Source: Rhodococcus qingshengii JCM 15477
Lineage (GTDB): Bacteria; Actinomycetota; Actinomycetes; Mycobacteriales; Mycobacteriaceae
DNA: 64,000 nt
Assembly: GCF_023221595.1 (NCBI RefSeq)
Contig: NZ_CP096563.1
Span: forward strand, 434,001-498,000
Reading direction: 5' to 3'
Shown here: positions 26,717 to 44,692 of the stretch, one piece after another
Numbering within the stretch: the first letter of the stretch is position 1
Layout: each line of letters starts with the position of its first letter
Notes under the pieces: model-generated
Told to the model about the DNA's origin: nothing
Seen by the model: the letters and a program-made list of their open reading frames with translations, nothing else
The model's database searches: none
Position numbers and translations under genes: made by a program

Positions 26717-27055
26717 GTGCAACCAGGTGGAGCACCCGACATGTCTGCTCTGTTGGCTCAGGCTCAGCAGATGCAGCAGCAATTGATGGCGGCGCAGCAG
26801 GAAATGGCTCAGGCCGAAGTGACCGGTCAGGCCGGTGGCGGACTGGTTGTCGCCACGGTCAAGGGCACCGGCGAGGTTGTCGGTCTGCAGATCGATCCCA
26901 AGGTCGTCGACCCCGAAGATGTCGAGACGCTGCAGGATCTGGTGATCGGCGCGATCGAGGACGCTTCGCGTAAGGCACAGGAAGTCGCTGCTGAGAAGCT
27001 CGGCCCGTTGGCCGGCGGACTCGGCGGAGGCCTTCCCGGTCTCCCCGGCTTCTAG
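26717..27055 (+). CDS. ebfC: YbaB/EbfC nucleoid-associated protein
   Basis: This 112-residue member of the YbaB/EbfC DNA-binding family is almost always encoded just before recR. The N-terminal helix is Gln- and Met-rich ([20 protein letters not shown]). The central sheet contains [15 protein letters not shown], and the tail is Gly/Pro-rich. The GTG start follows AAGGA. The stop is 12 bp before recR, so the two form an operon. The protein is thought to bind DNA as a dimer and help recombination repair with RecR, though its exact role is not settled. Confidence 0.93.
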
Positions 27056-27067
27056 AAACGAGAACGC

Positions 27068-27688
27068 GTGTACGAAGGTCCGGTTCAGGATCTGATCGAC
27101 GAACTCGGGAAGCTTCCCGGAGTCGGGCCGAAGAGCGCTCAACGCATCGCTTTTCACCTGCTCTCCGTGGAGCCTCCCGAGATCGACCGTTTGAAAAATG
27201 CATTGCAGCGCATCCGTGACGGCGTTCAGTTCTGCACGGTGTGCGGAACTGTCTCCGATCAGGAGAAGTGCCGCATCTGCGCCGACGCACGTCGCGATCG
27301 CACGGTGATCTGCGTCGTGGAGGAACCGAAGGACGTTCAGGCCGTCGAGCGCACCCGTGAGTTCAAGGGTCGCTATCACGTGCTCGGCGGTGCGCTCAAT
27401 CCGCTCTCGGGGATCGGGCCTGACCAGTTGCGTATCCGGGAGTTGTTGGCTCGCATCGCAAATCAGGAGGACGGCGTCGACGTGTCCGAGGTCATCATCG
27501 CCACCGACCCCAACACGGAGGGTGAGGCGACAGCTACCTATCTCGTTCGCATGATGCGAGACATTCCGGGGCTGACGGTGTCTCGGTTGGCTTCGGGTCT
27601 TCCGATGGGTGGCGATCTCGAATTCGCAGACGAGTTGACGCTGGGTCGGGCATTGTCCGGCCGTCGTGAATTGTCGCGGAACGCTTGA
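27068..27688 (+). CDS. recR: Recombination mediator RecR
   Basis: This 206-residue protein of the RecFOR pathway helps load RecA on gapped DNA. Domains in order: helix-hairpin-helix ([14 protein letters not shown], about 16-29), a four-cysteine zinc finger (CTVCG...CRIC, about 57-72), and a Toprim domain ([18 protein letters not shown], about 140-157). It is full length for the family. The GTG start follows GAGAACGC, a weak ribosome-binding site, which fits translational coupling to ebfC. The stop overlaps the start of the next gene, a TetR regulator, by one base, so that accessory gene is wired to read-through from the core operon. Confidence 0.96.
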
Positions 27689-28343: not shown

Positions 28344-29816
28344 GTGACGACGCTCGACCGTCCGCCGGGCACGCCTGCAGTCACCACCTCCGATGCGGGA
28401 CTCGCGCAGCCGCGCTCCCGCTTCCTGTTCCCCATCGTTGTCGCCGCCGCAGTGTTCCAGGCTGTTCTGCAGACGGTCATCGTTCCACTGCTGCCGGAGT
28501 TGCCGCACTTCACCGGCGCTGGACGCACGGCCGTGTCCTGGCTGGTGACCGTCACGCTGCTGGTCGGCGCTGTCGTCACTCCCATCTTCGGTCGACTCGC
28601 CGACATGTTCGGCAAGAAGAAGATGCTTCTGGTTGCTTTCTCGATGATGACTCTCGGCTCGATGTTGTGTGCGCTGTCGTCGGACATCGCTGTCCTCATC
28701 TTCGCGAGAGCGTTGCAGGGGGCCGGGTCGGCAGTCATCCCCATCGGAATCTCCATGCTCCGTGACGAATTGCCACGCAACAAGGTCAACGGCGCAGTGG
28801 CCATGATGAGTTCGACGCTCGGCGTCGGAACCGCTTTGGGCATACCGTTTTCCGCGATGATCGCGCAGTACTCGAACTGGCACGTCCTGTTCTGGGTAAC
28901 CACCGCCATCGGGCTGTCCGTGACTCTTGCTGCGGTGCTGTTCATTCGAGAGTCCGAGCCGAATCCGTCGGGAAGATTCGACGGCGTCGGGGCGGTTGGT
29001 CTGAGCGCCGCGATGATTGCTCTGCTTGTGCCGATCACTCAGGGGTCGAGTTGGGGGTGGACCAGTGGAGCGGTGATCTCCATGCTGGCCGCGTCGGCGG
29101 TGCTGTTCACGCTCTGGGTAATTCAACAGCGGCGCAACGTCAATCCGCTGGTCGACGTCCGTGCTCTCGTGAAACGTGCGGTGTTGATCCCGCATCTGGC
29201 GGCTCTGCTGGTCGGGTTCGCGTTTTTCGGGAACACGCTGATCACGACACAACTGCTGCAGGGGATGAAGGGGCCGGGTGCCGGGTACGGCCTGTCGATC
29301 ATCGCGGCAGCGCTCTGCCAGATTCCGGCGAGTATCGCGATGGTGCTGTTCTCACCGGTTGCGGTGCGTATCACCGACCGCTTCGGTTCACGGACCGCGA
29401 TGTTGACCGGTGCCGTGTTCCTCGCCGGCGGGTACGGGATTCACGCCGTTGCCGGTAAGCCGCTGTGGGGAGTGGTTGCAGCACTGGGTATCACAGCGGT
29501 CGGGACTGCCATCGTGTACAGCACGCTCTCGCTGCTGATTCTGGTTGCCGTACCTCGTCAGCGACTGGCGGCTGCCAACGGGGTGAACTCACTTCTGCGG
29601 ACGTCCGGAAGCACGATCTGCAGTGCGACGGTGGCAACCATTCTCGCTGCATTCGTGATCAGCGGTTCGGAACATTCCACGTCGTGGACCGGATTCTCCG
29701 TCGCCTACCTGGTGTGCGCGGGCTGCGCGGTGGTCGTGTTCGCGGTGTCGATCCTGTTGCCGCAGGGACGAACCCCGAAACATCTGGATTTGCCGGATCT
29801 GGTCAGGCGACCCTGA
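28344..29816 (+). CDS. MFS drug exporter, DHA2-type
   Basis: This 490-residue membrane protein has about 14 predicted transmembrane helices, as in the proton-driven DHA2 (EmrB/QacA) family of multidrug exporters. The conserved loop between helices 2 and 3 reads GRLADMFGKKKML (motif A), and motif C-like GTALGIPFSAMIA follows helix 5. The GTG at 28344 is chosen because the frame before it runs back into the palindrome, and AGGCGG lies six bases upstream. It is probably controlled by the TetR regulator just upstream. Its last 14 bp overlap the end of the convergent KstR2-like gene. Confidence 0.88.
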   Translation: MTTLDRPPGTPAVTTSDAGLAQPRSRFLFPIVVAAAVFQAVLQTVIVPLLPELPHFTGAGRTAVSWLVTVTLLVGAVVTPIFGRLADMFGKKKMLLVAFSMMTLGSMLCALSSDIAVLIFARALQGAGSAVIPIGISMLRDELPRNKVNGAVAMMSSTLGVGTALGIPFSAMIAQYSNWHVLFWVTTAIGLSVTLAAVLFIRESEPNPSGRFDGVGAVGLSAAMIALLVPITQGSSWGWTSGAVISMLAASAVLFTLWVIQQRRNVNPLVDVRALVKRAVLIPHLAALLVGFAFFGNTLITTQLLQGMKGPGAGYGLSIIAAALCQIPASIAMVLFSPVAVRITDRFGSRTAMLTGAVFLAGGYGIHAVAGKPLWGVVAALGITAVGTAIVYSTLSLLILVAVPRQRLAAANGVNSLLRTSGSTICSATVATILAAFVISGSEHSTSWTGFSVAYLVCAGCAVVVFAVSILLPQGRTPKHLDLPDLVRRP

Positions 29817-30381
29817 ATCCCGAGAGGAAGAGCGTGATCATCAGATCCGCGAACTCGTCGGTGGTGTACTTCTGGCGATCCGGCCAATGCGTTGTCGACC
29901 ACAAGGTGTCTCGTACCGATCGATAGAAAATTTCCGGTGCCACGTCTTTGCGGAAGATTCCCTGATCGACGCCTTCGGCAATCGCTTTCATCCAATGCTC
30001 GCGGACTTGGCGGGAAGGCCCGTCGACGGATTGCAGGAGATCGTTGTCGCGAAGATAAGCCCGATCGTTCTGGTAGATCGCCGTCGGGTGCGGGTGTAGT
30101 TCGATGACGACCAGCGTCTCGCGGATCAAGCCGCGCAGGACTTCCTCGGGGTCGTTTGCCGTCTTCTCCACCTGATCGAAGCGGAGCTGAATGTCGGTGA
30201 TGAAGCCGCGCATGAGCTCGGCAACTATCGCATTCTTCGACTTGAAGTAGTGGTAGAGGCTGCCCGAGAACACACCGGCGGCGTCGCCGATCTCGCGAAC
30301 GGTCGTGGTGGCGACACCCTTCCTGGCGAACAGCTCGGCTGAGCTCTCCAGGATCTTCTCCCGACGATCTGGTGATGCCAC
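29803..30381 (-). CDS. KstR2-like TetR regulator of the adjacent catabolic operon
   Basis: This 192-residue TetR protein has a helix-turn-helix region (TTTVREIGDAAGVFSGSLYHYFKSKNAIV) that is strikingly similar to KstR2, the regulator of steroid C/D-ring catabolism in actinobacteria. The ligand domain of KstR2 binds an acyl-CoA. A GTG at 30381 is chosen as the start, with GGAG six to seven bases upstream; the frame extends further but codes for nothing typical. It diverges from a ten-gene CoA-catabolic operon, and a perfect KstR2-type operator lies between them. It is probably a paralogue with its own inducer, because true KstR2 sits with ipdAB/fadE30-type genes, which are absent here. Confidence 0.82.
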   Translation of the reverse strand: MASPDRREKILESSAELFARKGVATTTVREIGDAAGVFSGSLYHYFKSKNAIVAELMRGFITDIQLRFDQVEKTANDPEEVLRGLIRETLVVIELHPHPTAIYQNDRAYLRDNDLLQSVDGPSRQVREHWMKAIAEGVDQGIFRKDVAPEIFYRSVRDTLWSTTHWPDRQKYTTDEFADLMITLFLSGFRVA

Positions 30382-30542
30382 TGAAATCTCCACTGGTTGT
30401 CGGTCCTGCTCAGGGCAGGGTTTCGGGGGTGCCGGGCTGCCGGCGTCGAACGTAGCGCAATCCTGCCTGATAGCTCCGGCTCGAACCAATTCGTCGGTGA
30501 GATCGCGTGTTTCCACTTCCGGATTCCTATGCTAGCTTCAAA

Positions 30543-30556
30543 ATCAAGCGCTTGCT
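30543..30556. promoter_or_regulatory. KstR2-type operator ATCAAGCGCTTGCT
   Basis: The site matches the KstR2 consensus AnCAAGnnCTTGnT at every fixed position, as I recall it from mycobacterial work. It lies in the divergent gap, 26 bp before the first structural gene and about 160 bp before the regulator start. TATGCT just upstream may be the -10 box. Confidence 0.7.
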
Positions 30557-30581
30557 CAACTTTCGTTCACGGAGGATTTCA

Positions 30582-31160
30582 GTGCAGAGCCTGCAGACGC
30601 AGTTTCCGAATTTCATCGGCACAGAGGCAGAACCACCCCGCGTCGCCCGCTACGCCGTCAACGAGGCGATGATCCGCAACTGGGTCGAGGCGCACGACGA
30701 CCGCAACTCGATCTACGTCGACGCAGAGGCCGCCCGCAGTACCGGTCGTCGAGACGTCGTCTGTCCGCCCGCCATGATCTCGACCTGGGTGATGGCGGGT
30801 TACCGACGTTATCGGCAGGTCCAGCAACTTCGTGCCGACGGAGTCTCCGAGGACTTCGCCTATTCACGACTGCTGGCGCTGTTGGACGAGGCCGGATACA
30901 CCTCCGTTGTCGCGACCAACGTCGAGCAGGAGTATTGCGCGGAGCTGAGCCCCGGTGACCACGTCACCGCGCATTTCACCATCGAAGCGATCTCGCCGTT
31001 CAAACAGACGGCTCTCGGTCACGGGTGCTTCATCACTCTGTTCAAGAAGTACGTGGACCAGGACGGAAAGACGCTGGTCGAAGAGCGCTTTCGACTGCTC
31101 AGATTCAAACCAGATGCCCAGACAGATACCAAGCCCGAAGCCCAGGAGGTAATCGCATGA
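30582..31160 (+). CDS. ChsH2-like MaoC/FAS1-type dehydratase domain protein
   Basis: This 192-residue protein has the N-terminal FAS1-like dehydratase/MaoC fold, as in the first half of ChsH2, a subunit of the steroid enoyl-CoA hydratase ChsH1-ChsH2. Typical segments are MIRNWVEAHDDRNSIYVDAE and DVVCPPAMISTWVMAGY. In M. tuberculosis ChsH2 this domain is fused to a DUF35 domain; here the DUF35 part is the next gene, overlapping by 4 bp. The GTG start has GGAGG six bases upstream. As first gene behind the KstR2-type operator it opens a ten-gene operon. It should pair with the small MaoC protein at 31582-31995 to hydrate an enoyl-CoA. Confidence 0.8.
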   Translation: MQSLQTQFPNFIGTEAEPPRVARYAVNEAMIRNWVEAHDDRNSIYVDAEAARSTGRRDVVCPPAMISTWVMAGYRRYRQVQQLRADGVSEDFAYSRLLALLDEAGYTSVVATNVEQEYCAELSPGDHVTAHFTIEAISPFKQTALGHGCFITLFKKYVDQDGKTLVEERFRLLRFKPDAQTDTKPEAQEVIA

Positions 31161-31585
31161 GCGAGACTGGCTCCCGCCACACCGCGGTGCCGAGACTCAC
31201 CGTCACCGACGACAACGATTTCTTCTTCTCCGCGGCCAAAGAGGGTCGCCTCGAGATCCAACGGTGTGCGGATTGCAAGACTCTGCGCCACCCGCCAGCG
31301 CCCGCCTGCCCGGAATGCCGCTCGTTCAGTTGGGACACAGTCGAATCCACGCGGCGATGCACGTTGCACAGCTTCACGGTCATCCATCACCCGAAGGATC
31401 CTGCTTTCGAGTACCCACTCGCCGTCGGACTCGTCGATCTCGAAGAAGGCACGCGTCTGGTTGCCGACATCGCGGGGATCGATCACGAGGAACTCGAATT
31501 CGGCATGGAACTCGAAGTGACCTTCTCCGAGCACGCTCACGGCGAGATGCTGCCGCAACTGAGGCGACGGGGTTCGGTGCAATGA
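31157..31585 (+). CDS. DUF35 Zn-ribbon/OB-fold protein (ChsH2 C-terminal-domain equivalent)
   Basis: This 142-residue protein has a rubredoxin-like zinc ribbon at about 36-54 (CADCKTLRHPPAPACPEC), followed by an OB-fold. Such DUF35 proteins are partners that activate Ltp2-type aldolases and other thiolase-fold enzymes by forming part of the acyl-CoA channel. In the cholesterol pathway the equivalent is the C-terminal domain of ChsH2, which binds Ltp2. Here the two halves are separate genes joined by 4-bp ATGA overlaps on both sides. Together with the thiolase-fold gene 31992-33173 it predicts retro-aldol cleavage of a side chain. Confidence 0.85.
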   Translation: MSETGSRHTAVPRLTVTDDNDFFFSAAKEGRLEIQRCADCKTLRHPPAPACPECRSFSWDTVESTRRCTLHSFTVIHHPKDPAFEYPLAVGLVDLEEGTRLVADIAGIDHEELEFGMELEVTFSEHAHGEMLPQLRRRGSVQ

Positions 31586-31995
31586 CGAAACTGATTGACT
31601 GCGAAGTGGGTTCGGTCCTCCCCAGCCTCGAATTGCCGTTGGATCGAACGCTGATCGTCGCCACCGCGATCTCTTCTCAGGATTTCGAGGACGTGCATCA
31701 CGATCCGGGCAAGGCACGGGATCGCGGAACTCCCGACATCTTCATGAGTATCAACACCACCAACGGGCTCATCGACCGCTACATCACCGACTGGTCCGGT
31801 CCGGCGTCACGGATCGTCAAAACATCACTACGGCTTGGTGTTCCGAACTTCCCCGGAGACACCATGACATTCACCGGCAAGGTCACCGCCACAGACGGCC
31901 GGGCGCTCACCGTGACGGTTCTCGGGAAAAACGCCCGCGGAACACACGTGACGGCCGACGTGACTCTCGAACCGGTGGAAAGGGTAATCGCATGA
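31582..31995 (+). CDS. ChsH1-like MaoC hydratase subunit
   Basis: This 137-residue single hot-dog protein of the MaoC group contains DFEDVHHDPGKARDRGTPDIF, the place where hydratase-2 enzymes carry the catalytic Asp and His. The size and operon position match ChsH1, the small subunit of the heteromeric steroid-enoyl-CoA hydratase. It overlaps its neighbours by 4 bp on each side. The likely reaction is addition of water to a 2-enoyl-CoA made by the dehydrogenases encoded further down, giving the beta-hydroxyacyl-CoA that the Ltp2-like enzyme then cleaves. Confidence 0.8.
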   Translation: MTKLIDCEVGSVLPSLELPLDRTLIVATAISSQDFEDVHHDPGKARDRGTPDIFMSINTTNGLIDRYITDWSGPASRIVKTSLRLGVPNFPGDTMTFTGKVTATDGRALTVTVLGKNARGTHVTADVTLEPVERVIA

Positions 31996-33173
31996 CACGA
32001 GGATTTTCGAGGCAAGCAGCCATCGCCGGAATCGGCGCCACCGAGTTCTCCAAGAACTCCGGCCGCAGCGAATGGCAGTTGGCGTGCGAATCCGTGATCG
32101 CCGCACTCGACGACGCTCACATCGAGGCAGAAGAGGTGAACGGATTTGCGCTGTTCACCATGGAGAACAATCCTGAGATTGCGGTCGCACGCGCCCTCGG
32201 GATCCCGGAATTGACGTTCTTCAGTCGAATTCCACACGGCGGCGGCGGTGCCTGCGCACCGGTTCAACAAGCAGCGCTTGCCGTCTCCAGCGGAGTTGCC
32301 GACGTTGTGGTCGTCTACCGTGCCTTCAACGAAAGATCAGGTCACCGATTCGGCGCCGGCCCGCCACCTTTTGCGTACAACGCGTCGACGGACCAGGAGT
32401 ATCGGAACTGGATCAACCCGTACGGGCTTCTGACCCCGGCGCAGCAGGAAGCCTTCCTCGCCAAGCTGTACATGCACAAGTACGGGGCAACAAGCGCCGA
32501 CTTCGGCCAGATCTCGGTCCTCTCACGCAAGCATGCGGCGAACAACCCCAAGGCCTGGTTCTACGAACGCCCGATCACTATCGAGGACCATCAGAACTCA
32601 CGCATGATCGCCGATCCCATCCGCCTGCTCGACTGCTGCCAGGAAAGTGACGGCGGACAGGCGCTGGTGATCGTCAGTGCGGAGCGCGCCCGCGACCTGC
32701 CGCACAAACCTGCGGTCATCAGTGGCGCTGCGCAAGGTGTAGGTCCGCAACAGATTTCGATGAGCAGCTACTACCGAGACGACATCGACAGCATGCCGGA
32801 AGTCGAACTCGTGGCGCGCCAACTGTGGGACCAGGCCGGTATCGGGCCGGACGACATCGATGCCGCAATTCTCTACGACGCTTTCACCCCGATGGTTCTG
32901 CTTCAACTCGAGGAGTACGGATTCTGCGGTCGGGGCGAGGCAAAAGACTTCATCTCCGACGGCAATCTCGAGCTGGACGGTCGCCTGCCGATCAACACCC
33001 ACGGCGGTCAACTCGGTGAGGGATACATCCACGGCGTCAACGGTATTGCCGAAGGTGTTCGCCTGATCCGCGGCACCTCCACCAATCAACCGACCAAAAC
33101 TCTGGACAACGTGCTCGTGACCGGCGGCTCTCCCGTCCCGCACAGTGCGCTCGTCCTCTCGGCAGATCGCTGA
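31992..33173 (+). CDS. Ltp2-like acyl-CoA retro-aldolase (thiolase fold)
   Basis: This 393-residue thiolase-superfamily protein is of the lipid-transfer-protein type. Instead of the thiolase GHP motif near the C-terminus it has THGGQLGEGYIHGVNG, the Ltp2-type signature with a tyrosine, and no nucleophilic cysteine motif of the C-A-S-G type is seen. In Ltp2, tyrosines are proposed to be catalytic in retro-aldol cleavage of 17-hydroxy steroid side chains, with DUF35 as partner. The DUF35 gene is two genes upstream. The predicted reaction is release of a short acyl-CoA (acetyl- or propionyl-CoA) from a beta-hydroxyacyl-CoA, leaving a ketone. The substrate is unknown. Confidence 0.83.
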   Translation: MTRGFSRQAAIAGIGATEFSKNSGRSEWQLACESVIAALDDAHIEAEEVNGFALFTMENNPEIAVARALGIPELTFFSRIPHGGGGACAPVQQAALAVSSGVADVVVVYRAFNERSGHRFGAGPPPFAYNASTDQEYRNWINPYGLLTPAQQEAFLAKLYMHKYGATSADFGQISVLSRKHAANNPKAWFYERPITIEDHQNSRMIADPIRLLDCCQESDGGQALVIVSAERARDLPHKPAVISGAAQGVGPQQISMSSYYRDDIDSMPEVELVARQLWDQAGIGPDDIDAAILYDAFTPMVLLQLEEYGFCGRGEAKDFISDGNLELDGRLPINTHGGQLGEGYIHGVNGIAEGVRLIRGTSTNQPTKTLDNVLVTGGSPVPHSALVLSADR

Positions 33174-33205
33174 ATCTGCCGCCTATTCGAGAAAGCAGGA
33201 ACAAG

Positions 33206-34414
33206 ATGAGCGAGCGGATCACCTACGCCAGGGCCACCCACGGCGAGGAAGAAATACAGGCTGTTGTCGACGTCTTGCGCAGCGGGCATCAAGGATTGCG
33301 CATCGGCAAGAACGTCTTCGAGATGGAAGAACGTATCGCGGCCTTGGCCGGCAAGAAGTTCGGCGTCATGTGCAACTCGGGATCCTCGGGTTTGTACTTG
33401 GCAGTCGAGCTGCTCGGACTGCCTGCCGGCAGTGAGATCATCACGTCGCCGTTGACGTTCTCCACCGACATCGCACCGATCGTGCGTGCCGGTCTGGTGC
33501 CGGTGTTCGTGGACGTGGAACCCAACACGTTCAACGTCGACGTCACCAAGATCGAGGCAATGGTCACCGAGAAGACCGGTGCCATCCTGATGCCGAACCT
33601 CGCCGGCAACTGCCCGGACTGGGACGTCATTCGTGATATCGCTGATCGCCATGGACTCAAAGTGATCGAGGATTCGTGTGACGCGATCGGCGCCACGCTC
33701 CGCGGTACTCCCACCGGGTCTCGGGCGGACATCGTCGTCACCAGTTTCTCGATGGCACACATCATCACGTGCGCGGGAACCGGTGGAATGGTGTGCGTCG
33801 ACGACGAAGCCAGCCGTGACAAGGCGTTGCTGCTTCGCCGCTGGGGCCGTCGTAGCGAGCCGAACCTGTTCGGCAGTACCAAGTCCGGCCGAGTCTTCCG
33901 TGAAGAACTCGACGGCGTCGACTACGACAACGACTTCATCTTCGAGCTCATGTCGTGGAACTTCGAGCCCTCCGAACTTGGCGCAGCTTACGGCGTCGTG
34001 CAGCTCGACAAGCTGGAACAGAACTACAAGACGCGTAAGGCAACATTTGCGGCCTTCTCGGCGGCATACGGCGCCCATCCTGAATTCTTCACGACGCCGG
34101 TAGAACTCGACGGTCTCGACACGGCGTGGCTGTGTTACCCGGTGATGATCAACGAGAACGCCCCCTTCACGCGCAGCGACCTGCAGGAAGCCATCGAGGC
34201 CGACGGCATCGACACCCGAACCGTGTGGAGCGGCAACGTCACTCGTCACCCCATGATGAACAACATCGAATTTCGCCAGCCGGCCGAAGGTTTGCCGGAA
34301 GCGGACGCAGTTTTTGCCCGCGGCATGACACTCGGCATGAGCCACGGTTTGCGTGACGACGAAGTTGCTCGGATTGCGGAGAGCATCAATCGCTTCGCCG
34401 CGAAGTGGAAGTAG
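33206..34414 (+). CDS. DegT/StrS-fold PMP-dependent dehydratase-like enzyme with Lys-to-His change
   Basis: This 402-residue protein has the aspartate-aminotransferase fold. N-terminal signatures include CNSGSSGLYLAVELL and FVDVEPNTFNVD; the PLP-binding Asp lies in VIEDSCDAIGA. Where DegT aminotransferases carry the Schiff-base lysine (SFxxxK), this protein reads SFSMAHIIT with His185. That change is the mark of the sugar 3-dehydratases ColD and RfbH (E1), whose sequences also have EDxCDALG. The Fe-S cysteines of RfbH are missing, as in ColD. It is therefore more likely a PMP-dependent dehydratase than an aminotransferase. No sugar-nucleotide genes are nearby; it sits inside a CoA-catabolic operon. 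The ATG follows CAGGA. Confidence 0.83.
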   Translation: MSERITYARATHGEEEIQAVVDVLRSGHQGLRIGKNVFEMEERIAALAGKKFGVMCNSGSSGLYLAVELLGLPAGSEIITSPLTFSTDIAPIVRAGLVPVFVDVEPNTFNVDVTKIEAMVTEKTGAILMPNLAGNCPDWDVIRDIADRHGLKVIEDSCDAIGATLRGTPTGSRADIVVTSFSMAHIITCAGTGGMVCVDDEASRDKALLLRRWGRRSEPNLFGSTKSGRVFREELDGVDYDNDFIFELMSWNFEPSELGAAYGVVQLDKLEQNYKTRKATFAAFSAAYGAHPEFFTTPVELDGLDTAWLCYPVMINENAPFTRSDLQEAIEADGIDTRTVWSGNVTRHPMMNNIEFRQPAEGLPEADAVFARGMTLGMSHGLRDDEVARIAESINRFAAKWK

Positions 34415-34415
34415 C

Positions 34416-35270
34416 ATGACCGATCGCTTCGAAGGACGCCGAGCGCTTGTCACCGGTTCCAGCCGCGGAATCGGTGCAGGCGTCGCAGAGAGGCTGGCAG
34501 CGGAAGGCGCTGACGTCGCTCTCGTGGCCCGGACGCTCGGTGCACACGCAACCCTGCCGGGCAGTCTCGAAGAGACTGCGGCTCGAATTGCCAAGTACGG
34601 AAACAAAGTCGAGATAGTTGTCGCAGATCTGACGGACGAGCAGCAGCGCGACACCGTTGTGCCGCTGGCGATCGAGAAGCTTGGCGGGACGATCGACATC
34701 CGGGTGAACAACGCGGCAGCGGCGATCTATCAGCCGCTCTCGGATTACCCACTGCGGCGGCGACGGTTGATGTTCGAGGCAAATGTCCATGCACCGCTCG
34801 ATCTGATGCAAGCCGTGGTGCCGGGGATGGTGGCAAACGGATACGGCTGGATCGTGAACGTGTCCAGTGGCACCGTCAAGCCGTGGCATGGCCCGCCGTT
34901 CACGTGGGTCGAACCGGGAACTGCCATGACCGTGTACGGCGCGTCCAAAGCAGCGCTCAACAGGATGAGCAACGGCATGGGCGTGGAACTCTACGGCCAG
35001 GGGGTTCGCGTCAACACGGTTCAACCGCGGGCAGCGGTGCTCAGTGAGGGCGCCAGAGTCCTGGTCGGTGAGACTATCCGGCCGGATCAGGTCGAATCTA
35101 TGGAAGAAATGGTGGAAGCGGTCACAGCGCTGTGTGATTGCGACACCGAGTTCACCGCGCGCTCGAGCGTCAGCTTGGACCTGATCGACGAGTGGTCCCT
35201 GACCGTGCGTGGTCTGGACGGCGCAGCATTACCGGAGAACCCAGCATTACGAACCGAGGAGTTGGCATGA
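34416..35270 (+). CDS. Short-chain dehydrogenase/reductase
   Basis: This 284-residue classical SDR has the NAD(P) loop TGSSRGIGAGVAE at about 10-22, the NNAA motif, the catalytic Ser in VNVSSGT, and YGASK with the catalytic Tyr and Lys. It is slightly longer than the usual 250 residues. The start at 34416 is one base after the stop of the DegT-like gene, with GGAAG just upstream. Its stop overlaps the thiolase start by 4 bp. In the operon it could oxidise a hydroxyl to a ketone, or reduce the ketone left by the aldolase or by the DegT-like dehydratase. Confidence 0.87.
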   Translation: MTDRFEGRRALVTGSSRGIGAGVAERLAAEGADVALVARTLGAHATLPGSLEETAARIAKYGNKVEIVVADLTDEQQRDTVVPLAIEKLGGTIDIRVNNAAAAIYQPLSDYPLRRRRLMFEANVHAPLDLMQAVVPGMVANGYGWIVNVSSGTVKPWHGPPFTWVEPGTAMTVYGASKAALNRMSNGMGVELYGQGVRVNTVQPRAAVLSEGARVLVGETIRPDQVESMEEMVEAVTALCDCDTEFTARSSVSLDLIDEWSLTVRGLDGAALPENPALRTEELA

Positions 35271-36397
35271 AGCCCGTCATCGTTGACGCAGCACGAACGC
35301 CGTTCGGCAAGCGTGAGGGTTGGCTGTCCGGAGTCCACGCGGCGGAACTGTTGGGTTATGCGCAGAAAGGCGTGCTGGATCGGGTGGGCGTGGATCCTGG
35401 CGCGGTCGACCAGGTCATCGGCGGCTGTGTGACGCCTCTCGGTGAGCAGTTCGGAAACATCGTGCGTACGTCCTGGATGCATGCGGGCCTTCCGTTGGAA
35501 GCGGGCTGCACCACGATCGACGCGCAGTGCGGAACCGCGCAGCAATCGGTGCAGTTGATTGCCGGGCAGATTGCCATCGGTGCAGTCGACGTGGGTGTGG
35601 CGTGCGGTGTGGAACTGATGTCGCGGGCACCACTCACCTACAAGGTGGGTACCGGCCTCGGAACACCACGTCCGGAGTCGTGGTCACTCGATACCGTCGA
35701 CCAGTACACCGCAGCGGATCGGATTGCTGTCAAGCGCGGTTTCAGCCGCGAGGATCTCGACTCCTTCGGGCTGCGCTCGCAGCAGCGAGCCGCAGCAGCA
35801 TGGGAGGCAGGACGCTTCGACTCGCACATCATCGATGTGGTCGCTCCGGGCTCTGACGCTCCGGTTCATCGGGATCAGGGTCTGCGCGAATCGAGTCTCG
35901 AAGGACTCGCGAAACTGCGGACCGTTCAAGAGGGCGGATTGCACACCGCTGGAACGTCTTCGCAGGTCTCGGACGGTGCGAGTGCCGCTCTGCTGATGTC
36001 CGAGGATCGAGCCAGGATGCTCGGGGTGCGGCCGCGGGCAAAGATATTGGCGCAGTGCGTCATTGGCGGAGACATCGAGTTCATGCTCGACGGTCCCGTG
36101 GACGCGGCAAACATCGTGCTCGGCCGCACCGGTCTGACGATCGACGACATCGACCTGTTCGAGGTCAACGAGGCATTTGCTTCGGTACCGATGTCGTTCG
36201 CGCAGGTTCACGGCGTCGATCCCGAATTGCTGAACGTCAACGGTGGTGCAATCGCGCTGGGCCACCCGGCCGGTGCAACCGGAATCAGACTGTTGGCCAA
36301 TGTCATCGACGAACTGGAGCGTCGGGACAAGTCCATCGCACTGATCGCGATCTGCGCGTCCGCCGCAACAACCTGCCTGATTCTCGAACGCATCTGA
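35267..36397 (+). CDS. Acetyl-CoA acyltransferase (thiolase) with altered C-terminal motif
   Basis: This 376-residue thiolase has the nucleophilic cysteine in DAQCGTAQQS, NEAFAS, and GGAIALGHPAGATG. At the C-terminus, where the usual motif is CxGGGMG, this protein reads CASAATTCLIL: the cysteine is kept but the glycine loop is lost. That may change the oxyanion hole or substrate scope. It overlaps the SDR gene by 4 bp and has GAGGAG upstream. In the operon it would remove a two- or three-carbon unit as acetyl- or propionyl-CoA in a beta-oxidation round separate from the Ltp2-like cleavage. Confidence 0.87.
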   Translation: MKPVIVDAARTPFGKREGWLSGVHAAELLGYAQKGVLDRVGVDPGAVDQVIGGCVTPLGEQFGNIVRTSWMHAGLPLEAGCTTIDAQCGTAQQSVQLIAGQIAIGAVDVGVACGVELMSRAPLTYKVGTGLGTPRPESWSLDTVDQYTAADRIAVKRGFSREDLDSFGLRSQQRAAAAWEAGRFDSHIIDVVAPGSDAPVHRDQGLRESSLEGLAKLRTVQEGGLHTAGTSSQVSDGASAALLMSEDRARMLGVRPRAKILAQCVIGGDIEFMLDGPVDAANIVLGRTGLTIDDIDLFEVNEAFASVPMSFAQVHGVDPELLNVNGGAIALGHPAGATGIRLLANVIDELERRDKSIALIAICASAATTCLILERI

Positions 36398-36424
36398 CAA
36401 GAACCGAAGATTGAGGAACCTGCC

Positions 36425-38635
36425 ATGGCACTGCCCCTGCTCGAAGATCACCGTGACCTGGCGGAAGCGGTAGCCGCATTCGCGAACCGCTTCGGTGGAA
36501 TCGCCGATACGCGGAGCAACGTCAAGCGGTACGCCGCCGGTGATCGGCCGGACTCGTGGGATGGATTGGTCCGTCAGGGACTGCACGCAGTGCACCTGCC
36601 GGAGCAGTACGGCGGTGACGGGGCAGGGCTTGCCGAACTGGCGGTGGTAGTCGAGCAATTGGGTGATGCGCTTTACCCGGGGCCGTACGTTCCGACGGTC
36701 ATCGCCAGTGGGATCCTCGCGAAAGCTGCCGGCCCGGCTGCGGAATCAATGCTGATCGAATTGGCCACCGGCGCAACCGGAGCAGTCTGCACCGGCGTGG
36801 GATTGCGCGCGGCTCGCAGCGATGCAGGGTGGACCGTGAGCGGTTCTGCCGACCCGGCTCTAGGTCTACCCGGAGCCGATGTCGTTCTCGTGCAAGCGAA
36901 CAGCGAAGACGGCGAGTTGTGGTTCCGGCTCGAGCAGTCGTCTTCCGCTGCGGTGGAGGTCGAAGACGGAGTGGATCTGACACGCTCGATCGGGACGCTG
37001 ACGTTGACCGATCACAAGGTCGACGCTGGGCTGATCGTCGAGGGTCTCCAGGCGCACCGAGTCGAACTGATCGTCAACACGGTGTTGGCTGCGGAGGCGA
37101 GCGGTATCGCCGGGTGGGCGCTACGCACCGCGGTCGACTACGTGAAGTCCCGGCAGCAGTTCGGCCGTCCGGTCGGAAGCTTCCAGGCAGTTCAGCACAA
37201 GGCGGCCATGATGCTGGTCCGCTCCGAGATTGCCTGTGCCGCAGCGTGGGACGCAGCTCGGTCCGAAGAGCACGGCGAGGATCAGCAGAGACTTGTCTCG
37301 GCTCAAGCTGCGTTGGCCGCTTTGCCCGTCGGCATCGAGAACGCCCTCGAATGTGTCACGTTGCTCGGCGGAATCGGATTCACTTGGGAGCATGACGCGC
37401 ATCTGTACTGGCGCCGGGCAATCAGTATCGCTGCGGTGGCGGGTTCCGAGGTGAAGTGGGCACACACGTTGGGAGACCGGTCTGCCGATTCGGAACGGGA
37501 TTTCTCCTTTGTAGACCCGGACATGCTGCCTGAACTACGAGAGCAGGTTCGCAGGGTTCTGGACGAGGTTGCGCTGCTGCCCGACGACGGAACCACCAGC
37601 GCCAGTTGGGCGCCGGCCAAGGGGAGCGCTCGACGCGCCCGATTTGCCGACGCCAAACTGGTAGCCCCGCACTATCGGGCGCCGTACGGGCTGGGAGCAG
37701 GACCGAGAGAACAGGCCGTCATCGCACACGAATTCGCGATGCGAGGTTGGGCTCAACCGTCCACGGTGATCGGGGAATGGGTGCTGCCCACGATTCTCGA
37801 ACACGGCAACGCCGAGCAGCAGGACAGGTTCGTCGAGCCTTCGCTGCGCGCCGACATCATCTGGTGCCAGCTGTTCAGTGAGCCGGGCGCGGGATCAGAC
37901 CTGGCCGGTCTGAGCACGAAAGCGCGCAAGGTCGACGGTGGCTGGGTCCTGTCGGGTCAGAAAGTGTGGAACTCGGGCGCGCACGAGGCCGATTGGGGAG
38001 TATGCCTGGCGCGTTCCGACGCCGACGCTCCGAAACATCGTGGGCTGTCGTACTTCCTGGTCGACATGACCTCGAAAGGTATCGACGTACGTCCGCTGAA
38101 ACAAGCCACCGGTAAGTCGGAGTTCAACGAGGTATTCCTCGACGACGTCTTCGTCCCGGACGACTGCCTGGTGGCGGAGCCGGGGCAAGGGTGGAAGCTT
38201 GCTGCGACAACGCTGTCCAACGAACGCCTGAGTATGGGCAGCACGCTGCACCACGGTTCGAGTCGGCTGTTCCGTCAGGTTATCGCCGACGCGAGCCACG
38301 ACTGCCCTCGCGAAGACGCAGTGGAGGGCCTCGGCCGCAGTATCTCTCGTGAGTTGGCACTGTCCGCGATGAATCTACGCGGGGTGTCGGCGCGACTGGC
38401 GGGTCAGGAACCGGGCTCCGAGATCAGCGTGTCGAAGGTGTACAACGCCCTGGCGCAGCGTGAGGGCTCGCGGGATCTGTTGCGACTGCTCGGACCTCGT
38501 GCCGCCGTTGTCGACCCGTCGGCGAATTACGCGATAGACCACATCGGACTTCCCTCGATTCTGTTCGGCGGCGGAACCGTCGAAATTCAACTCAACGTCA
38601 TCGCGCAGCGCGTACTCGGCCTGCCGCGTTCGTAG
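36425..38635 (+). CDS. Fused double acyl-CoA dehydrogenase (FadE34/CasC-like)
   Basis: This 736-residue protein is made of two complete acyl-CoA dehydrogenase units in tandem. The first spans residues 1 to about 370 (ending LLGGIGFTWEHDAHLYWRR) and the second about 395-736 (CQLFSEPGAGSDLAGL, SGQKVWNSGA, and LFGGGTVEIQLNVIA near the end). This fusion is typical of FadE34 (ChsE3) and CasC, the dehydrogenases for steroid and bile-acid side chains, where one half has lost activity and the pair mimics the heteromeric ChsE1-ChsE2 enzyme. It supports a polycyclic substrate for this operon. Usual length for the fused family is 700-750 residues. Confidence 0.88.
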   Translation: MALPLLEDHRDLAEAVAAFANRFGGIADTRSNVKRYAAGDRPDSWDGLVRQGLHAVHLPEQYGGDGAGLAELAVVVEQLGDALYPGPYVPTVIASGILAKAAGPAAESMLIELATGATGAVCTGVGLRAARSDAGWTVSGSADPALGLPGADVVLVQANSEDGELWFRLEQSSSAAVEVEDGVDLTRSIGTLTLTDHKVDAGLIVEGLQAHRVELIVNTVLAAEASGIAGWALRTAVDYVKSRQQFGRPVGSFQAVQHKAAMMLVRSEIACAAAWDAARSEEHGEDQQRLVSAQAALAALPVGIENALECVTLLGGIGFTWEHDAHLYWRRAISIAAVAGSEVKWAHTLGDRSADSERDFSFVDPDMLPELREQVRRVLDEVALLPDDGTTSASWAPAKGSARRARFADAKLVAPHYRAPYGLGAGPREQAVIAHEFAMRGWAQPSTVIGEWVLPTILEHGNAEQQDRFVEPSLRADIIWCQLFSEPGAGSDLAGLSTKARKVDGGWVLSGQKVWNSGAHEADWGVCLARSDADAPKHRGLSYFLVDMTSKGIDVRPLKQATGKSEFNEVFLDDVFVPDDCLVAEPGQGWKLAATTLSNERLSMGSTLHHGSSRLFRQVIADASHDCPREDAVEGLGRSISRELALSAMNLRGVSARLAGQEPGSEISVSKVYNALAQREGSRDLLRLLGPRAAVVDPSANYAIDHIGLPSILFGGGTVEIQLNVIAQRVLGLPRS

Positions 38636-38652
38636 ATCTTAGGAGTTTCACC

Positions 38653-39858
38653 ATGTACTTGGATTTGTCGGAGGAGTCGAAGACTCTGCGCAAGGAATTG
38701 CGGGCGTACTTCGCGGAGATCATCAACGACGAAGACCGCCGTGCTCTCGTGGATCAGACCGAAGGCGGCCCCGTCTTCGATCGCATTCTGCGCCGAATGG
38801 GTAAAGACGGTTGGCTGGGCTTGGGGTGGCCGGAGGAATTCGGCGGTCGGGGCGAGAACCCCGAAGCTCTGTACGTGTTCTACGACGAGGTGATTCGCGC
38901 CAATGCGCCGCTGTCGCTGGTCACGCTGAACACCGTCGGACCCGCTCTGATCAAGCACGGGACGCAAGCTCAGAAGGACTTCTTCCTGCGTCCGATCCTG
39001 GCGGGCGAGTTGATCTTTGCCATCGGCTACACCGAACCCAATGCGGGCACCGACCTCGCGGCACTCGAAACACGCGCCCGCATCGAGGGTGACGAGCTTG
39101 TCATCAACGGCAACAAGATCTTCACCAGCGCCGGTGTGTTTGCCGACTGGGTCTGGCTTGCCGTTCGCACCGATCCCGACGCGCCGACGCATCAGGGCAT
39201 TTCCGTGGTCCTGGTACCGACCAGCTCGCCGGGGTTCTCGGTCACCGAAATTCACACCGTGGGCGGAATCAGCACTTCGGCAACCTATTACGAAGATGTT
39301 CGGGTGCCGATCACCAATGTCGTCGGTGAGCTCAATCAAGGGTGGAAGCTCATCACCAACCAGCTCAACCACGAACGTGTTGCCCTGGCGGCACGCGGTG
39401 GTATAGCCAACGAGCTCTTTGCCGAGGTGGTCGAATGGGCAAAGACCGAACCCGCCGGTGACGGCCACGTCTACGACATCGACTGGGTACGTGAGAAATT
39501 GGCGGAAGTCTACGCGCTGCTCAGTGCTGCCGACCTGATGAACCTGCGACTGGTGGCGGACGTCGCCGCCAACACCTTGGGCGGCGGGGATTCGGCCGCG
39601 GCCAAGATCTTCGGTACCGAAGCCGTCGTCAGTGCGTACGGCATGCTGCAGGAAGTGCTGGGCGCCAAGGGCTTACTGCGCCCCGGCACACCCGGAGCGG
39701 TACTGGAAGGGCGGGTCGAGAACCTGGGTCGACGCGCCCAGAACAACACCTTCGGCGGTGGTACCAACGAAGTGATGCGTGAAATCGTCGCCGCAAAATG
39801 TCTGGGCATGGCGCTTGCTGCGCGTCGCCGACCCGCTGCACAGAACGAAAAGAGCTGA
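38653..39858 (+). CDS. Acyl-CoA dehydrogenase, ChsE-type subunit A
   Basis: This 401-residue acyl-CoA dehydrogenase contains IGYTEPNAGTDLAALETRA (flavin/substrate region), INGNKIFTSAG, and the C-terminal TFGGGTNEVMREIVA that contacts FAD. It is the size and type of one subunit of the alpha2beta2 steroid dehydrogenases such as ChsE1-ChsE2. The other subunit is probably the next gene, which starts 1 bp after this stop. The complex would introduce the 2,3 double bond in the acyl-CoA that the ChsH-like pair hydrates. The ATG follows AGGAG. Confidence 0.86.
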   Translation: MYLDLSEESKTLRKELRAYFAEIINDEDRRALVDQTEGGPVFDRILRRMGKDGWLGLGWPEEFGGRGENPEALYVFYDEVIRANAPLSLVTLNTVGPALIKHGTQAQKDFFLRPILAGELIFAIGYTEPNAGTDLAALETRARIEGDELVINGNKIFTSAGVFADWVWLAVRTDPDAPTHQGISVVLVPTSSPGFSVTEIHTVGGISTSATYYEDVRVPITNVVGELNQGWKLITNQLNHERVALAARGGIANELFAEVVEWAKTEPAGDGHVYDIDWVREKLAEVYALLSAADLMNLRLVADVAANTLGGGDSAAAKIFGTEAVVSAYGMLQEVLGAKGLLRPGTPGAVLEGRVENLGRRAQNNTFGGGTNEVMREIVAAKCLGMALAARRRPAAQNEKS

Positions 39859-39859
39859 C

Positions 39860-40987
39860 ATGGAATTCGAATTCGACGACAACTTGTCCGCGGTGCGGGA
39901 TCTGAGTGAATCGATCTTCTCGGCGAAGTCCGGAGTGGACCGCCTGCGGGAAGTGGAGGGCGCCGGCGGTTTCGACGCCGAACTGTGGAAGCTCCTCGCC
40001 GACTCCGACGTTCTGGGAATTCCTCTGCCAGAGGAAGTCGGGGGAGCGGGACTCGGAATGCTAGGCCTGGCAGCGGTGCTCGAACAACAAGGCCGCCGGG
40101 TCGCCCAGGTGCCGCTCTGGTCGGTGATTTCGACGGCAGCGCTGCCGATTGCCGAGTTCGGCAGTACGGAGCAGAAAGCGTCGTGGCTTCCGGGACTGCT
40201 CGACGGCTCGGTGATCGTCACCGGCGCCTTCGACACCGGTTACAACGCCGAGACGGCAGTTCGCGCCGAGCCGGCTCCTGACGGCTGGGTTCTGTCGGGC
40301 CACGTCGACTCCGTACCGGCCGCCGAGTTCGCTGCCGCACTGGTGGTTCCGGTGACGATGCCGGACGGCAGTGTCACCGTGATGATCGTGCCGACGGACC
40401 GGGACGCGCTGGTGCGTACACCGCTTGCGGTGACGAACCGCGAGAGCAACAGCGCTGTGCAGTTCGACGGGGTTGCGGTTACTGCAGCTGACGCACTTCC
40501 CGCGGACGGCGCGGTGGTTCGAGACTGGACGTTACGACGTGCGCGGGTCGCTCTGGCGGCCCTGGCTACCGGCGTCTGCGAGGAAGCGCTGGCGATGACG
40601 GCGAAATACACCTCCGAGCGAGTGCAATTCGGACGTCCACTCTCGACCAACCAGGCAGTTGCCGTCCGGGCCGCCGACGCGTACCTCGACACCGAGAGCA
40701 CAAGATTGACCACCCACCGCGCTGCCTGGCTGATGGACAGCGGAGTCGAGAGTGAAGCGGAAGCGGCTGCGCTGGTCGCCAAATGGTGGGCGTCGCGCGG
40801 CGGTTTGCGCGTGGTGCACGCGACCCAGCACATGCACGGCGGAATCGGCGCGGATGTCGACTATCCGATTCACCGCTATTTCCTGTGGGGACGGCAGATC
40901 GCCTTCACTTTGGGGAGCGCGGGGGCGATAGGCGCCGAACTCGCCGATCAGTTGGAGATCCGAGCCCAGATCGGGGCGTCGGCGTGA
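39860..40987 (+). CDS. Acyl-CoA dehydrogenase, ChsE-type subunit B
   Basis: This 375-residue acyl-CoA dehydrogenase-like protein starts directly after the previous stop codon. Its C-terminal block HATQHMHGGIGADVDYPIHRY is typical of the FadE28-type partner subunits, and the N-terminal half is more diverged from catalytic family members. I infer that it forms a heteromer with 38653-39858, one subunit supplying the base and the other completing the FAD site. It is the last clear gene of the catabolic operon; the next gene (LtrA-like) lies 66 bp on and seems independent. Confidence 0.85.
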   Translation: MEFEFDDNLSAVRDLSESIFSAKSGVDRLREVEGAGGFDAELWKLLADSDVLGIPLPEEVGGAGLGMLGLAAVLEQQGRRVAQVPLWSVISTAALPIAEFGSTEQKASWLPGLLDGSVIVTGAFDTGYNAETAVRAEPAPDGWVLSGHVDSVPAAEFAAALVVPVTMPDGSVTVMIVPTDRDALVRTPLAVTNRESNSAVQFDGVAVTAADALPADGAVVRDWTLRRARVALAALATGVCEEALAMTAKYTSERVQFGRPLSTNQAVAVRAADAYLDTESTRLTTHRAAWLMDSGVESEAEAAALVAKWWASRGGLRVVHATQHMHGGIGADVDYPIHRYFLWGRQIAFTLGSAGAIGAELADQLEIRAQIGASA

Positions 40988-43978: not shown

Positions 43979-44692
43979 TCAGCGAATCGCGAGTCGCTCC
44001 TTGCGGAGCTTGTCGACCTCGGGCAGATGCAGGGGTTCAAGCTCGTTCACACCCAAGGCGCGCATGAGCAGGAGGTCCGCGAGTTCGGGGTTGCGAGCCA
44101 AAGCGGGTCCGTGCATGTACGTCCCGATCACCGAACCCTGCACGACGCCTTCGAATCCGTCGCCGACGCCGTTTCCGACACCATGGGTGACACGTGCGAA
44201 TCCAGAGGCTGAGCTACCCAGAGTTGTTCCGCCGCGATGGTTCTCGAACCCCGAGAGGGGCGCGGTGAGTCCGTCGATCAGCGGCTTCGTGATGACTTCG
44301 CCGATGGAACGCTTCTCCTGCGGCGAGGTCGTGACGTCGAGCATCGAGACACCGTCGACGCGTTCGCCGCTGGAGGTTTCGTACCAGTTGCCGAGCACCT
44401 GAATGGCAGCGCAGATCGCCAGAACCGGTGCGCCACGCTCGGCGGCGCGTTGCAGACCAGGGTATTTCGCGAGGTGACGCGTTGCGAGGCGCTGAGCGGA
44501 ATCCTCGGCGCCACCCAACGTGTACACGTCGAGCGAATCGGGGACCGGATCGCTGAGGGTGATGTCCACGATTTCGGCGTCGTAGCCGCGCATCCGCAGA
44601 CGCTGACGCAGGATCAGGGCATTGCCGCCGTCGCCGTAGGTGCCCATGACGTCGGGGAGTACCAGACCGATGCGAACTGTCGAGTCAGACAT
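43979..44692 (-). CDS. gatD: Lipid II isoglutaminyl synthase, glutaminase subunit GatD
   Basis: This 237-residue class I glutamine amidotransferase of the CobB/CobQ type frees ammonia from glutamine. MurT then uses it to amidate the D-glutamate of lipid II. The catalytic cysteine lies in VLAICAAIQVLGNWYE and the histidine in GTYMHGPALARNPELAD. The ATG at 44692 lies inside the end of murT (8-bp overlap), which indicates coupled synthesis of the two subunits. The longer frame upstream would read through murT. The order murT-gatD matches Rv3712-Rv3713. Confidence 0.93.
   Translation of the reverse strand: MSDSTVRIGLVLPDVMGTYGDGGNALILRQRLRMRGYDAEIVDITLSDPVPDSLDVYTLGGAEDSAQRLATRHLAKYPGLQRAAERGAPVLAICAAIQVLGNWYETSSGERVDGVSMLDVTTSPQEKRSIGEVITKPLIDGLTAPLSGFENHRGGTTLGSSASGFARVTHGVGNGVGDGFEGVVQGSVIGTYMHGPALARNPELADLLLMRALGVNELEPLHLPEVDKLRKERLAIR

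Follow-up and report, generated by a model that had tools for sequence, protein, structure and literature searches.

Described systems of two kinds come close to the locus analysed here. In PMC8987622, E1, ColD, and SpnQ are described as carrying a His in place of the Lys and as deoxygenating C3 of sugars; ColD works without an Fe-S cluster, its intermediate being hydrolysed, and the ColD/E1-type chemistry is described there for nucleotide sugars. In steroid side-chain breakdown, PMC12329534 describes a complex of the aldolase Ltp2 with ChsH, names Tyr294 and Tyr344 as the catalytic residues of Ltp2, and gives as its substrate a C17-hydroxylated C3 side chain.

Elements of both systems occur side by side in the window, by which is meant the whole stretch of 64,000 nucleotides of Rhodococcus qingshengii JCM 15477 that was analysed (Table 1). 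Ten co-directional genes, each separated from the next by a short gap or overlapping it slightly, occupy 30507-40987 in the order MaoC-like, DUF35, MaoC/HadB-like, Ltp2-like, DegT, SDR, thiolase, fused FadE, FadE, and FadE, and a TetR gene lies divergently upstream. The first-pass annotation had placed the DegT gene between an Ltp2-like aldolase gene and an SDR gene, in a CoA-dependent degradation operon free of sugar-nucleotide genes, and both statements hold. The DegT gene starts 32 bases after the end of the Ltp2-type gene, the SDR gene starts 1 base past the DegT stop codon, and no sugar-nucleotide enzyme was found among nine scanned neighbours, namely TetR and eight members of the operon; the one remaining operon gene encodes a FadE. 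The second hydratase subunit gave no Pfam match, and the fused acyl-CoA dehydrogenase gave no PDB sequence match at E <= 1e-40. Elsewhere in the window are what we take to be YbaB-like and RecR-like genes (26717-27055 and 27068-27688, respectively) and, at 43979-45938, presumably a GatD/MurT-like pair.

Table 1. Features of the operon and its divergent regulator, in window coordinates.
Feature	Position	Strand	Evidence
Divergent TetR-family regulator, start uncertain	29803..30516	-	Pfam
MaoC-like hydratase subunit (FAS1_DH_region), start codon uncertain	30507..31160	+	Pfam
DUF35 protein (ChsH2-type zinc ribbon + OB fold), expected Ltp2 partner	31157..31585	+	Pfam
Second MaoC/HadB-like hydratase subunit	31582..31995	+	Weak HadB match, 32 of 203 bits
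Ltp2-type steroid side-chain aldolase, YDAF + GEGY motifs	31992..33173	+	6ok1, PRK07855, motifs
DegT-fold His-type protein, predicted PMP-dependent deoxygenase	33206..34414	+	ORF, Pfam, E1 alignment, fold match
His185 codon, aminotransferase lysine position	33758..33760	+	Alignment to 3bcx/3bb8
SDR dehydrogenase	34416..35270	+	Pfam
Steroid 3-ketoacyl-CoA thiolase (PRK07850 type)	35267..36397	+	597 bits, cut-off 515
Fused (double) acyl-CoA dehydrogenase	36425..38635	+	Pfam
Acyl-CoA dehydrogenase subunit, Tcur3483 type	38653..39858	+	6wy8_B, 414 bits
Acyl-CoA dehydrogenase subunit, Tcur3481 type	39860..40987	+	6wy8_A, 265 bits

The DegT open reading frame is uninterrupted from ATG to TAG and encodes 402 amino acids, which match the Pfam family DegT_DnrJ_EryC1 with 272 bits (cut-off, 19.8). 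A replacement of the lysine by His185 had been proposed for this protein, and the alignment with E1 bears it out: no lysine stands at the active site, residue 185 corresponds to the catalytic His220 of the E1 dehydrase (3bcx), and the H220K mutant chain of E1 (3bb8) has Lys in the same column. This column is His in all 121 proteins compared (the query and 120 others, among the matches listed of 4637). Of 81 loci with a match, 78 likewise have His, a number that includes some genomes fetched twice. Two of the exceptions are further DegT-type matches of the R. qingshengii genome, which carry Lys, and the third is a truncated contig that lacks the column. Along with His185, many further residues are invariant in 30 aligned members. 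An AlphaFold model of the protein (pLDDT, 82.9; pTM, 0.84), in which residues 182-192, 213-235, and 237-251 have pLDDT values below 50, retrieved the E1 dehydrase as the top match of a PDB search (TM, 0.85), with ColD from rank 16 onwards. The public names of the homologues are DegT-family aminotransferases, hexulose dehydrases, or LPS proteins.

E1 is of the RfbH type (CDP-6-deoxy-L-threo-D-glycero-4-hexulose 3-dehydrase) and shares with the DegT protein the fold, a near full-length alignment of 175 bits, the His, a GN-x-TR-x-P stretch, and one cysteine: Cys158, which does not vary among the 30 aligned members, stands at the place of E1 Cys193. However, Cys193, 251, 253, and 261 of E1 are presumably the four ligands of its [2Fe-2S] cluster, and in the alignment the loop cysteines 251, 253, and 261 find no counterparts in the DegT protein. 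The four-cysteine motif of the E1/SpnQ branch is thus incomplete, and within residues 205-262 Cys occurs in one column only, in 3 of 33 sequences, among which the protein of the window is not found. The Cys158 codon itself lies at window positions 33677-33679, and three relatives of a sugar branch, considered below, have Ala there. With only one of the four E1 Fe-S cysteines present, the chemistry of the DegT protein is more plausibly of the ColD type than of the E1/SpnQ type. ColD (GDP-4-keto-6-deoxymannose 3-dehydratase; 2gms, 3gr9, and 3b8x) likewise combines the DegT fold with His for Lys, and its lack of an Fe-S cluster has its parallel in the lack of a complete cysteine motif; in contrast, the two proteins are only ~26% identical, and in PMC8987622 ColD acts on a sugar nucleotide in a lipopolysaccharide sugar pathway. 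The label 'ColD/RfbH-like' given by the first-pass annotation is supported for this Lys-to-His protein and can be refined to ColD-like; the score with the RfbH model (NCBIfam NF011936) is 248.6 bits, well under the cut-off of 423.

The remaining genes of the operon point to a steroid. The Ltp2-type protein matches 6ok1, which we take to be the Ltp2 of Thermomonospora curvata, with 557 bits (next match, 159 bits) and the lipid-transfer model PRK07855 with 654 bits (cut-off, 469). The YDHF motif and the tyrosines of 6ok1 agree with the published Ltp2 numbering (PMC12329534). In the Ltp2 of the window, Tyr295 and Tyr345 occupy the corresponding positions of the aligned YDxF and GExY motifs, and both catalytic tyrosines are kept. 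The DUF35 partner, the hydratase pair, and the heteromeric acyl-CoA dehydrogenase of a C17 side-chain module are all encoded in the operon, which shares with the igr-type module (presumably named Ltp2-ChsH1/ChsH2-ChsE1/E2) a hydratase, a DUF35 protein, an aldolase, and two acyl-CoA dehydrogenase genes, but adds the DegT and SDR genes. In the flanks of orthologous loci, a CasG steroid-24-oyl-CoA synthetase scores 911 bits in L017 (cut-off, 750), and its cluster is present at 5 of the 25 loci. A steroid-22-oyl-CoA synthetase resembling CasI, with its cluster at 10 of the 25 loci, falls short of the cut-off of 900 (621 bits in L012). CasG above the cut-off is also encoded by two genes elsewhere in the R. 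qingshengii genome and by none in 14 control genomes. Judged by its gene content, the operon is a steroid-type side-chain module, and its Ltp2 module presumably acts on a steroid-22-oyl-CoA. The earlier wording 'lipid or steroid' can thus be narrowed to steroid, with lipid less favoured, because of the Ltp2 match to 6ok1, the relatives of Tcur3481/3483, the thiolase above its cut-off, and the flanking CasG.

The association of the DegT gene with the Ltp2/DUF35 genes, the other point on which the first-pass annotation depended, is conserved in related genomes. The Ltp2 gene lies directly before the DegT gene in 25 of 25 named loci (L004-L028) from Rhodococcus, Tomitella, Nocardia, Nocardioides, Geodermatophilus, Blastococcus, and Streptosporangium, including L018, whose contig begins inside the Ltp2 gene. 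Similarly, when the coordinates of 251 genomes of the family were scanned, a close Ltp2 was found less than 100 bases from DegT in all 22 genomes that bear an orthologue. DegT matches at E <= 1e-100 occur in 36 of these 251 genomes, 22 with orthologues (at least 729 bits) and 15 with a ~70% paralogue, with one genome counted in both groups, and a close Ltp2 is present in 29, of which 22 have the DegT orthologue. The TetR gene is upstream in 23 of the 25 loci; of the two where it was not seen, one is a contig cut short. In the tree, operon group A falls on one side of a branch with weak support (65/41). Our own gene calls include false antisense ORFs, and neighbours were named only if a cluster member had been scanned with Pfam/NCBIfam or matched an operon protein.

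The SDR gene follows DegT directly in 20 of the 25 orthologous loci. However, of 10 genomes that keep Ltp2 and DegT, three, all drafts, gave no SDR match at E <= 1e-45, and a fourth, that of L027, has a partial match only. The idea of the SDR as an obligate partner is weakened by these three genomes, and the ketone substrate of the DegT protein therefore need not derive from the SDR. HsaA is present in 36 of 36 DegT genomes, compared to 202 of 251 overall (hypergeometric P ~2e-4, a value that assumes independence of the genomes, although they are related); because HsaA is so common in the family, this is modest evidence. Among 24 further genomes, HsaA scored above the cut-off in nine, namely in all eight genomes of other families that have clade A or B genes and in 1 of 16 genomes of a more distant branch, in which four more lay below the cut-off. 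In G282, HsaA is ~14 kb from the SDR gene on the same contig.

Ltp2 modules also occur without DegT. Besides the operon, the R. qingshengii genome encodes two further sets of hydratase, DUF35, Ltp2, and FadE genes, one at 5.36 Mb (5355001-5375000, L096; Ltp 66%) and one at 0.83 Mb (820001-840000, L098; Ltp 62%), and neither contains a DegT match; DegT thus supplements a single one of the three parallel side-chain modules. Among the 29 Ltp-positive genomes, seven, all of one genus (g27), have a close Ltp2 without an orthologous DegT, and one of the seven has a 70% DegT paralogue elsewhere. Five such DegT-less copies from another genus than that of the window were read (L105-L109; Ltp 87-91%), four of them from these seven genomes and the fifth from G140, where a module with DegT is also present, and they lack a close SDR as well as DegT. 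Rhodococcus gordoniae appears to have a module with DegT (L015) and, judged by matching coordinates, one lacking it (L105). The Ltp motifs YDAF and GEGY are present in all 25 named loci and in 37 of 37 DegT-linked rows (twice-fetched genomes included), whereas the igr-type Ltp2 has YDHF and GEAY, as do the two other Ltp2 proteins of the R. qingshengii genome; 6ok1 likewise has no YDAF/GEGY. These motifs were considered as a mark of a 16-substituted substrate, and this idea was set aside: all five DegT-less copies share them, and they therefore cannot be read as a sign of a 16-hydroxyl.

The wider family extends beyond the operon. Ten loci of the 70% paralogue, which is well supported in the tree, were read (L029, L088-L095, and L100), and six of them have steroid-type neighbours. 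In L088, KshA (3-ketosteroid 9-alpha-hydroxylase) adjoins DegT, and in L095 the KshA cluster is no more than 7 kb away. A fused FadE accompanies two Amidohydro_2 genes in L089, L090, L091, and L095, the families having been scanned for L089 alone, and a related SDR was called near the paralogue in L089 and L095. Nearby in L093 are a thiolase and a protein of the bile acid:sodium symporter family. These surroundings are possibly another steroid-type catabolic module. No clear steroid gene was seen near the paralogue in the other four loci (L029, L092, L094, and L100), whose neighbours are aldo-keto reductase, FMN monooxygenase, peptide transporter, or other genes. PdxS, a PLP-synthase subunit, is encoded one gene from DegT in L088, and the same cluster occurs in L090.

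A more distant branch (47-60%, mostly Acidimicrobiia MAGs) has DegT together with an SDR or amidohydrolases and no adjacent Ltp2 of the operon type. A steroid link for the whole DegT-His family was considered and not upheld: with an HsaA count of 1 of 16 and no adjacent Ltp2, a steroid role finds no support in this branch, and the family is thus not steroid-only. Ltp relatives were found in 20 of 20 genomes searched, the Ltp family being broad. Where no Ltp2 adjoins DegT, a related SDR gene can still be the direct neighbour of DegT or be separated from it by one gene (62% identical to the SDR of the window in L034, 52% in L089), and an Embleya relative (58%) is near SDR, esterase, AMP-ligase, and flavin monooxygenase genes. 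The acidimicrobial locus L049, with clusters common to L052, L056, and L057, has two Amidohydro_2 genes before DegT, and genes of the OpuAC and choline-dehydrogenase-like types come after it. Two MAGs titled Bifidobacterium breve (L034 and L058) have DegT proteins that group with those of Microthrix-type MAGs, and Rhodococcus sp. IEGM 1379 (L009) stands under Cyanobacteriota in the tree listing; both labels are probably wrong.

From the fold, the active-site His, the operon, and its conservation, we infer a cofactor state, a reaction, a position, and a substrate for the DegT protein. It is probable that the protein deoxygenates an alpha-ketol at some position of a steroid. With slightly less but still moderate confidence, it can be described as a PMP-dependent, ColD-like alpha-ketol deoxygenase of a steroid that acts most likely at C16, and C16 taken by itself as the site, which the first-pass annotation had left unnamed, is a tentative assignment. 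PMP would condense with the steroid ketone to a ketimine, His185 would remove the C4' proton of PMP, and the hydroxyl next to the ketimine would then depart. Hydrolysis of the resulting enamine would release ammonia and leave the deoxy ketone, and PMP would be regenerated from PLP by an amino donor, for instance glutamate. Ltp2, encoded directly upstream, would yield a C17 ketone. C13 of a steroid is quaternary; therefore, if the DegT protein uses the Ltp2 ketone, C16 is the only possible site, and 16-hydroxysteroids such as 16-alpha-hydroxy bile acids would be the leading candidates. The need for B6 chemistry would follow from the fact that an alpha-hydroxyl next to the C17 ketone cannot depart by simple beta-elimination. 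In this way 16-hydroxy-17-ketosteroids, derived from 16-hydroxy bile acids or plant sapogenins after side-chain removal, would become ordinary 17-ketosteroids and enter the usual ring-degradation route. Spirostanol sapogenins have an oxygen at C16. In PMC2886068, C-12 and C-16 are common additional sites of bile salt hydroxylation, and 16-alpha-hydroxylation is common in snakes and birds (also PMC7996314). In the ColD scheme, as known in general and from PMC8987622, the departing hydroxyl stands on the carbon adjoining the ketone. Counted against the preferred reading are the close Ltp2 in genomes that have no orthologous DegT, the distant branch with its mostly missing steroid link, the four paralogue loci lacking clear steroid genes, the relatives in CDP-sugar clusters, and the retained Cys158.

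The same chemistry could take place elsewhere on the molecule, with the SDR oxidising one hydroxyl of a vicinal diol and the DegT protein removing the other. Candidate positions are the 2,3-diols of ring A (ecdysteroids and brassinosteroids), the 6,7-diols of ring B (hyocholic and muricholic acids), or a 22-keto-23-hydroxy side chain. The SDR directly after DegT in most orthologous loci, and a related SDR beside or near DegT in branches without an adjacent Ltp2, in which it may supply the ketone, are in favour of this explanation. However, three of the ten operon-bearing genomes examined have no SDR match while Ltp2 adjoins DegT in every named locus, and action at another site is rated as unlikely, although it is the strongest competitor of C16 deoxygenation. 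Plain dehydration of a beta-hydroxy carbonyl steroid or CoA ester, with no net deoxygenation, is improbable. It would suit a gene in a CoA beta-oxidation operon, but that operon already encodes MaoC-type hydratases, and such eliminations are generally known to need no B6. The sugar relatives are indeed named dehydratases in PMC8987622, yet the same text has E1, ColD, and SpnQ deoxygenating C3.

A sugar substrate, whether on the way to a deoxy sugar nucleotide destined for the cell surface or as part of a steroid glycoside, has in its favour that E1 is the closest solved relative and that relatives at 47% identity adjoin rfbF and rfbG in Roseibium (L103) and Leisingera (L102). An Ensifer relative similarly follows nucleotidyltransferase and sugar-dehydratase type genes, and from these three loci the DegT-His family has a sugar branch. 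Its members carry the active-site His and no cysteines in the Fe-S loop region (L102-L104), and these alphaproteobacterial proteins are possibly Fe-S-free CDP-sugar 3-dehydrases. However, the branch stands apart in the tree (support, 100/100), the L102 and L103 proteins lie in CDP-sugar clusters, and 17 residues that are invariant in the 30 aligned members, Cys158 included, differ in all three sugar-branch relatives. Moreover, unlike E1, the DegT protein of the window sits in a steroid-type operon and in a genus in which CDP-glucose 4,6-dehydratase (TIGR02622, E <= 1e-60) was found in 0 of 28 genomes, although both search controls, B. subtilis and Synechococcus, matched, one of them above the cut-off. 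The glucose-1-phosphate cytidylyltransferase of the rfbF family (TIGR02623, E <= 1e-40) occurs in 10 of these 28 genomes and in 0 of the 11 that bear DegT. This search covered the CDP-glucose route. Because the dehydratase was not found in the 28 genomes, a CDP-sugar is an unlikely substrate; CDP-sugar biosynthesis was rejected as the main reading on both counts, and a sugar substrate of any of the kinds named above has a low probability. A plasmid search returned 48 records, of which five were opened; two of the five were unannotated in the region concerned.

A role in transaminating or deaminating amino steroids, steroidal alkaloids for example, is given the same low probability as a sugar substrate. 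Loss of the Schiff-base lysine disfavours an efficient transaminase, and no amine-specific gene was found among the operon proteins scanned. On the other side, lysine-free members such as ColD can still exchange amino groups with PLP. SpnQ, too, transaminates, according to PMC8987622. A non-catalytic or bystander gene is the least probable explanation, since His185 and many other residues are invariant in the 30 aligned members and DegT is kept beside ltp2 in several actinobacterial families.

Overall, deoxygenation of a 16-hydroxy-17-ketosteroid by the DegT protein is the preferred reading. A literature search of open-licence papers gave, among the matches listed, no DegT/PMP enzyme in steroid breakdown. 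It is possible, and is put forward tentatively, that the DegT protein is a PMP-dependent steroid C16 deoxygenase recruited from deoxysugar biosynthesis and the first B6-type deoxygenation in lipid catabolism. If so, this would answer how bacteria handle a hydroxyl beside the C17 ketone, and would give a function to a conserved protein group and a selective steroid deoxygenase of possible synthetic use. The family would then hold further catabolic alpha-ketol deoxygenases for other substrates, among the Gordonia-type paralogues and in Acidimicrobiia, and alpha-hydroxyl removal, once Ltp2 has made the 17-ketone, would open plant sapogenins or the 16-hydroxy bile acids of snakes and birds to soil actinobacteria.
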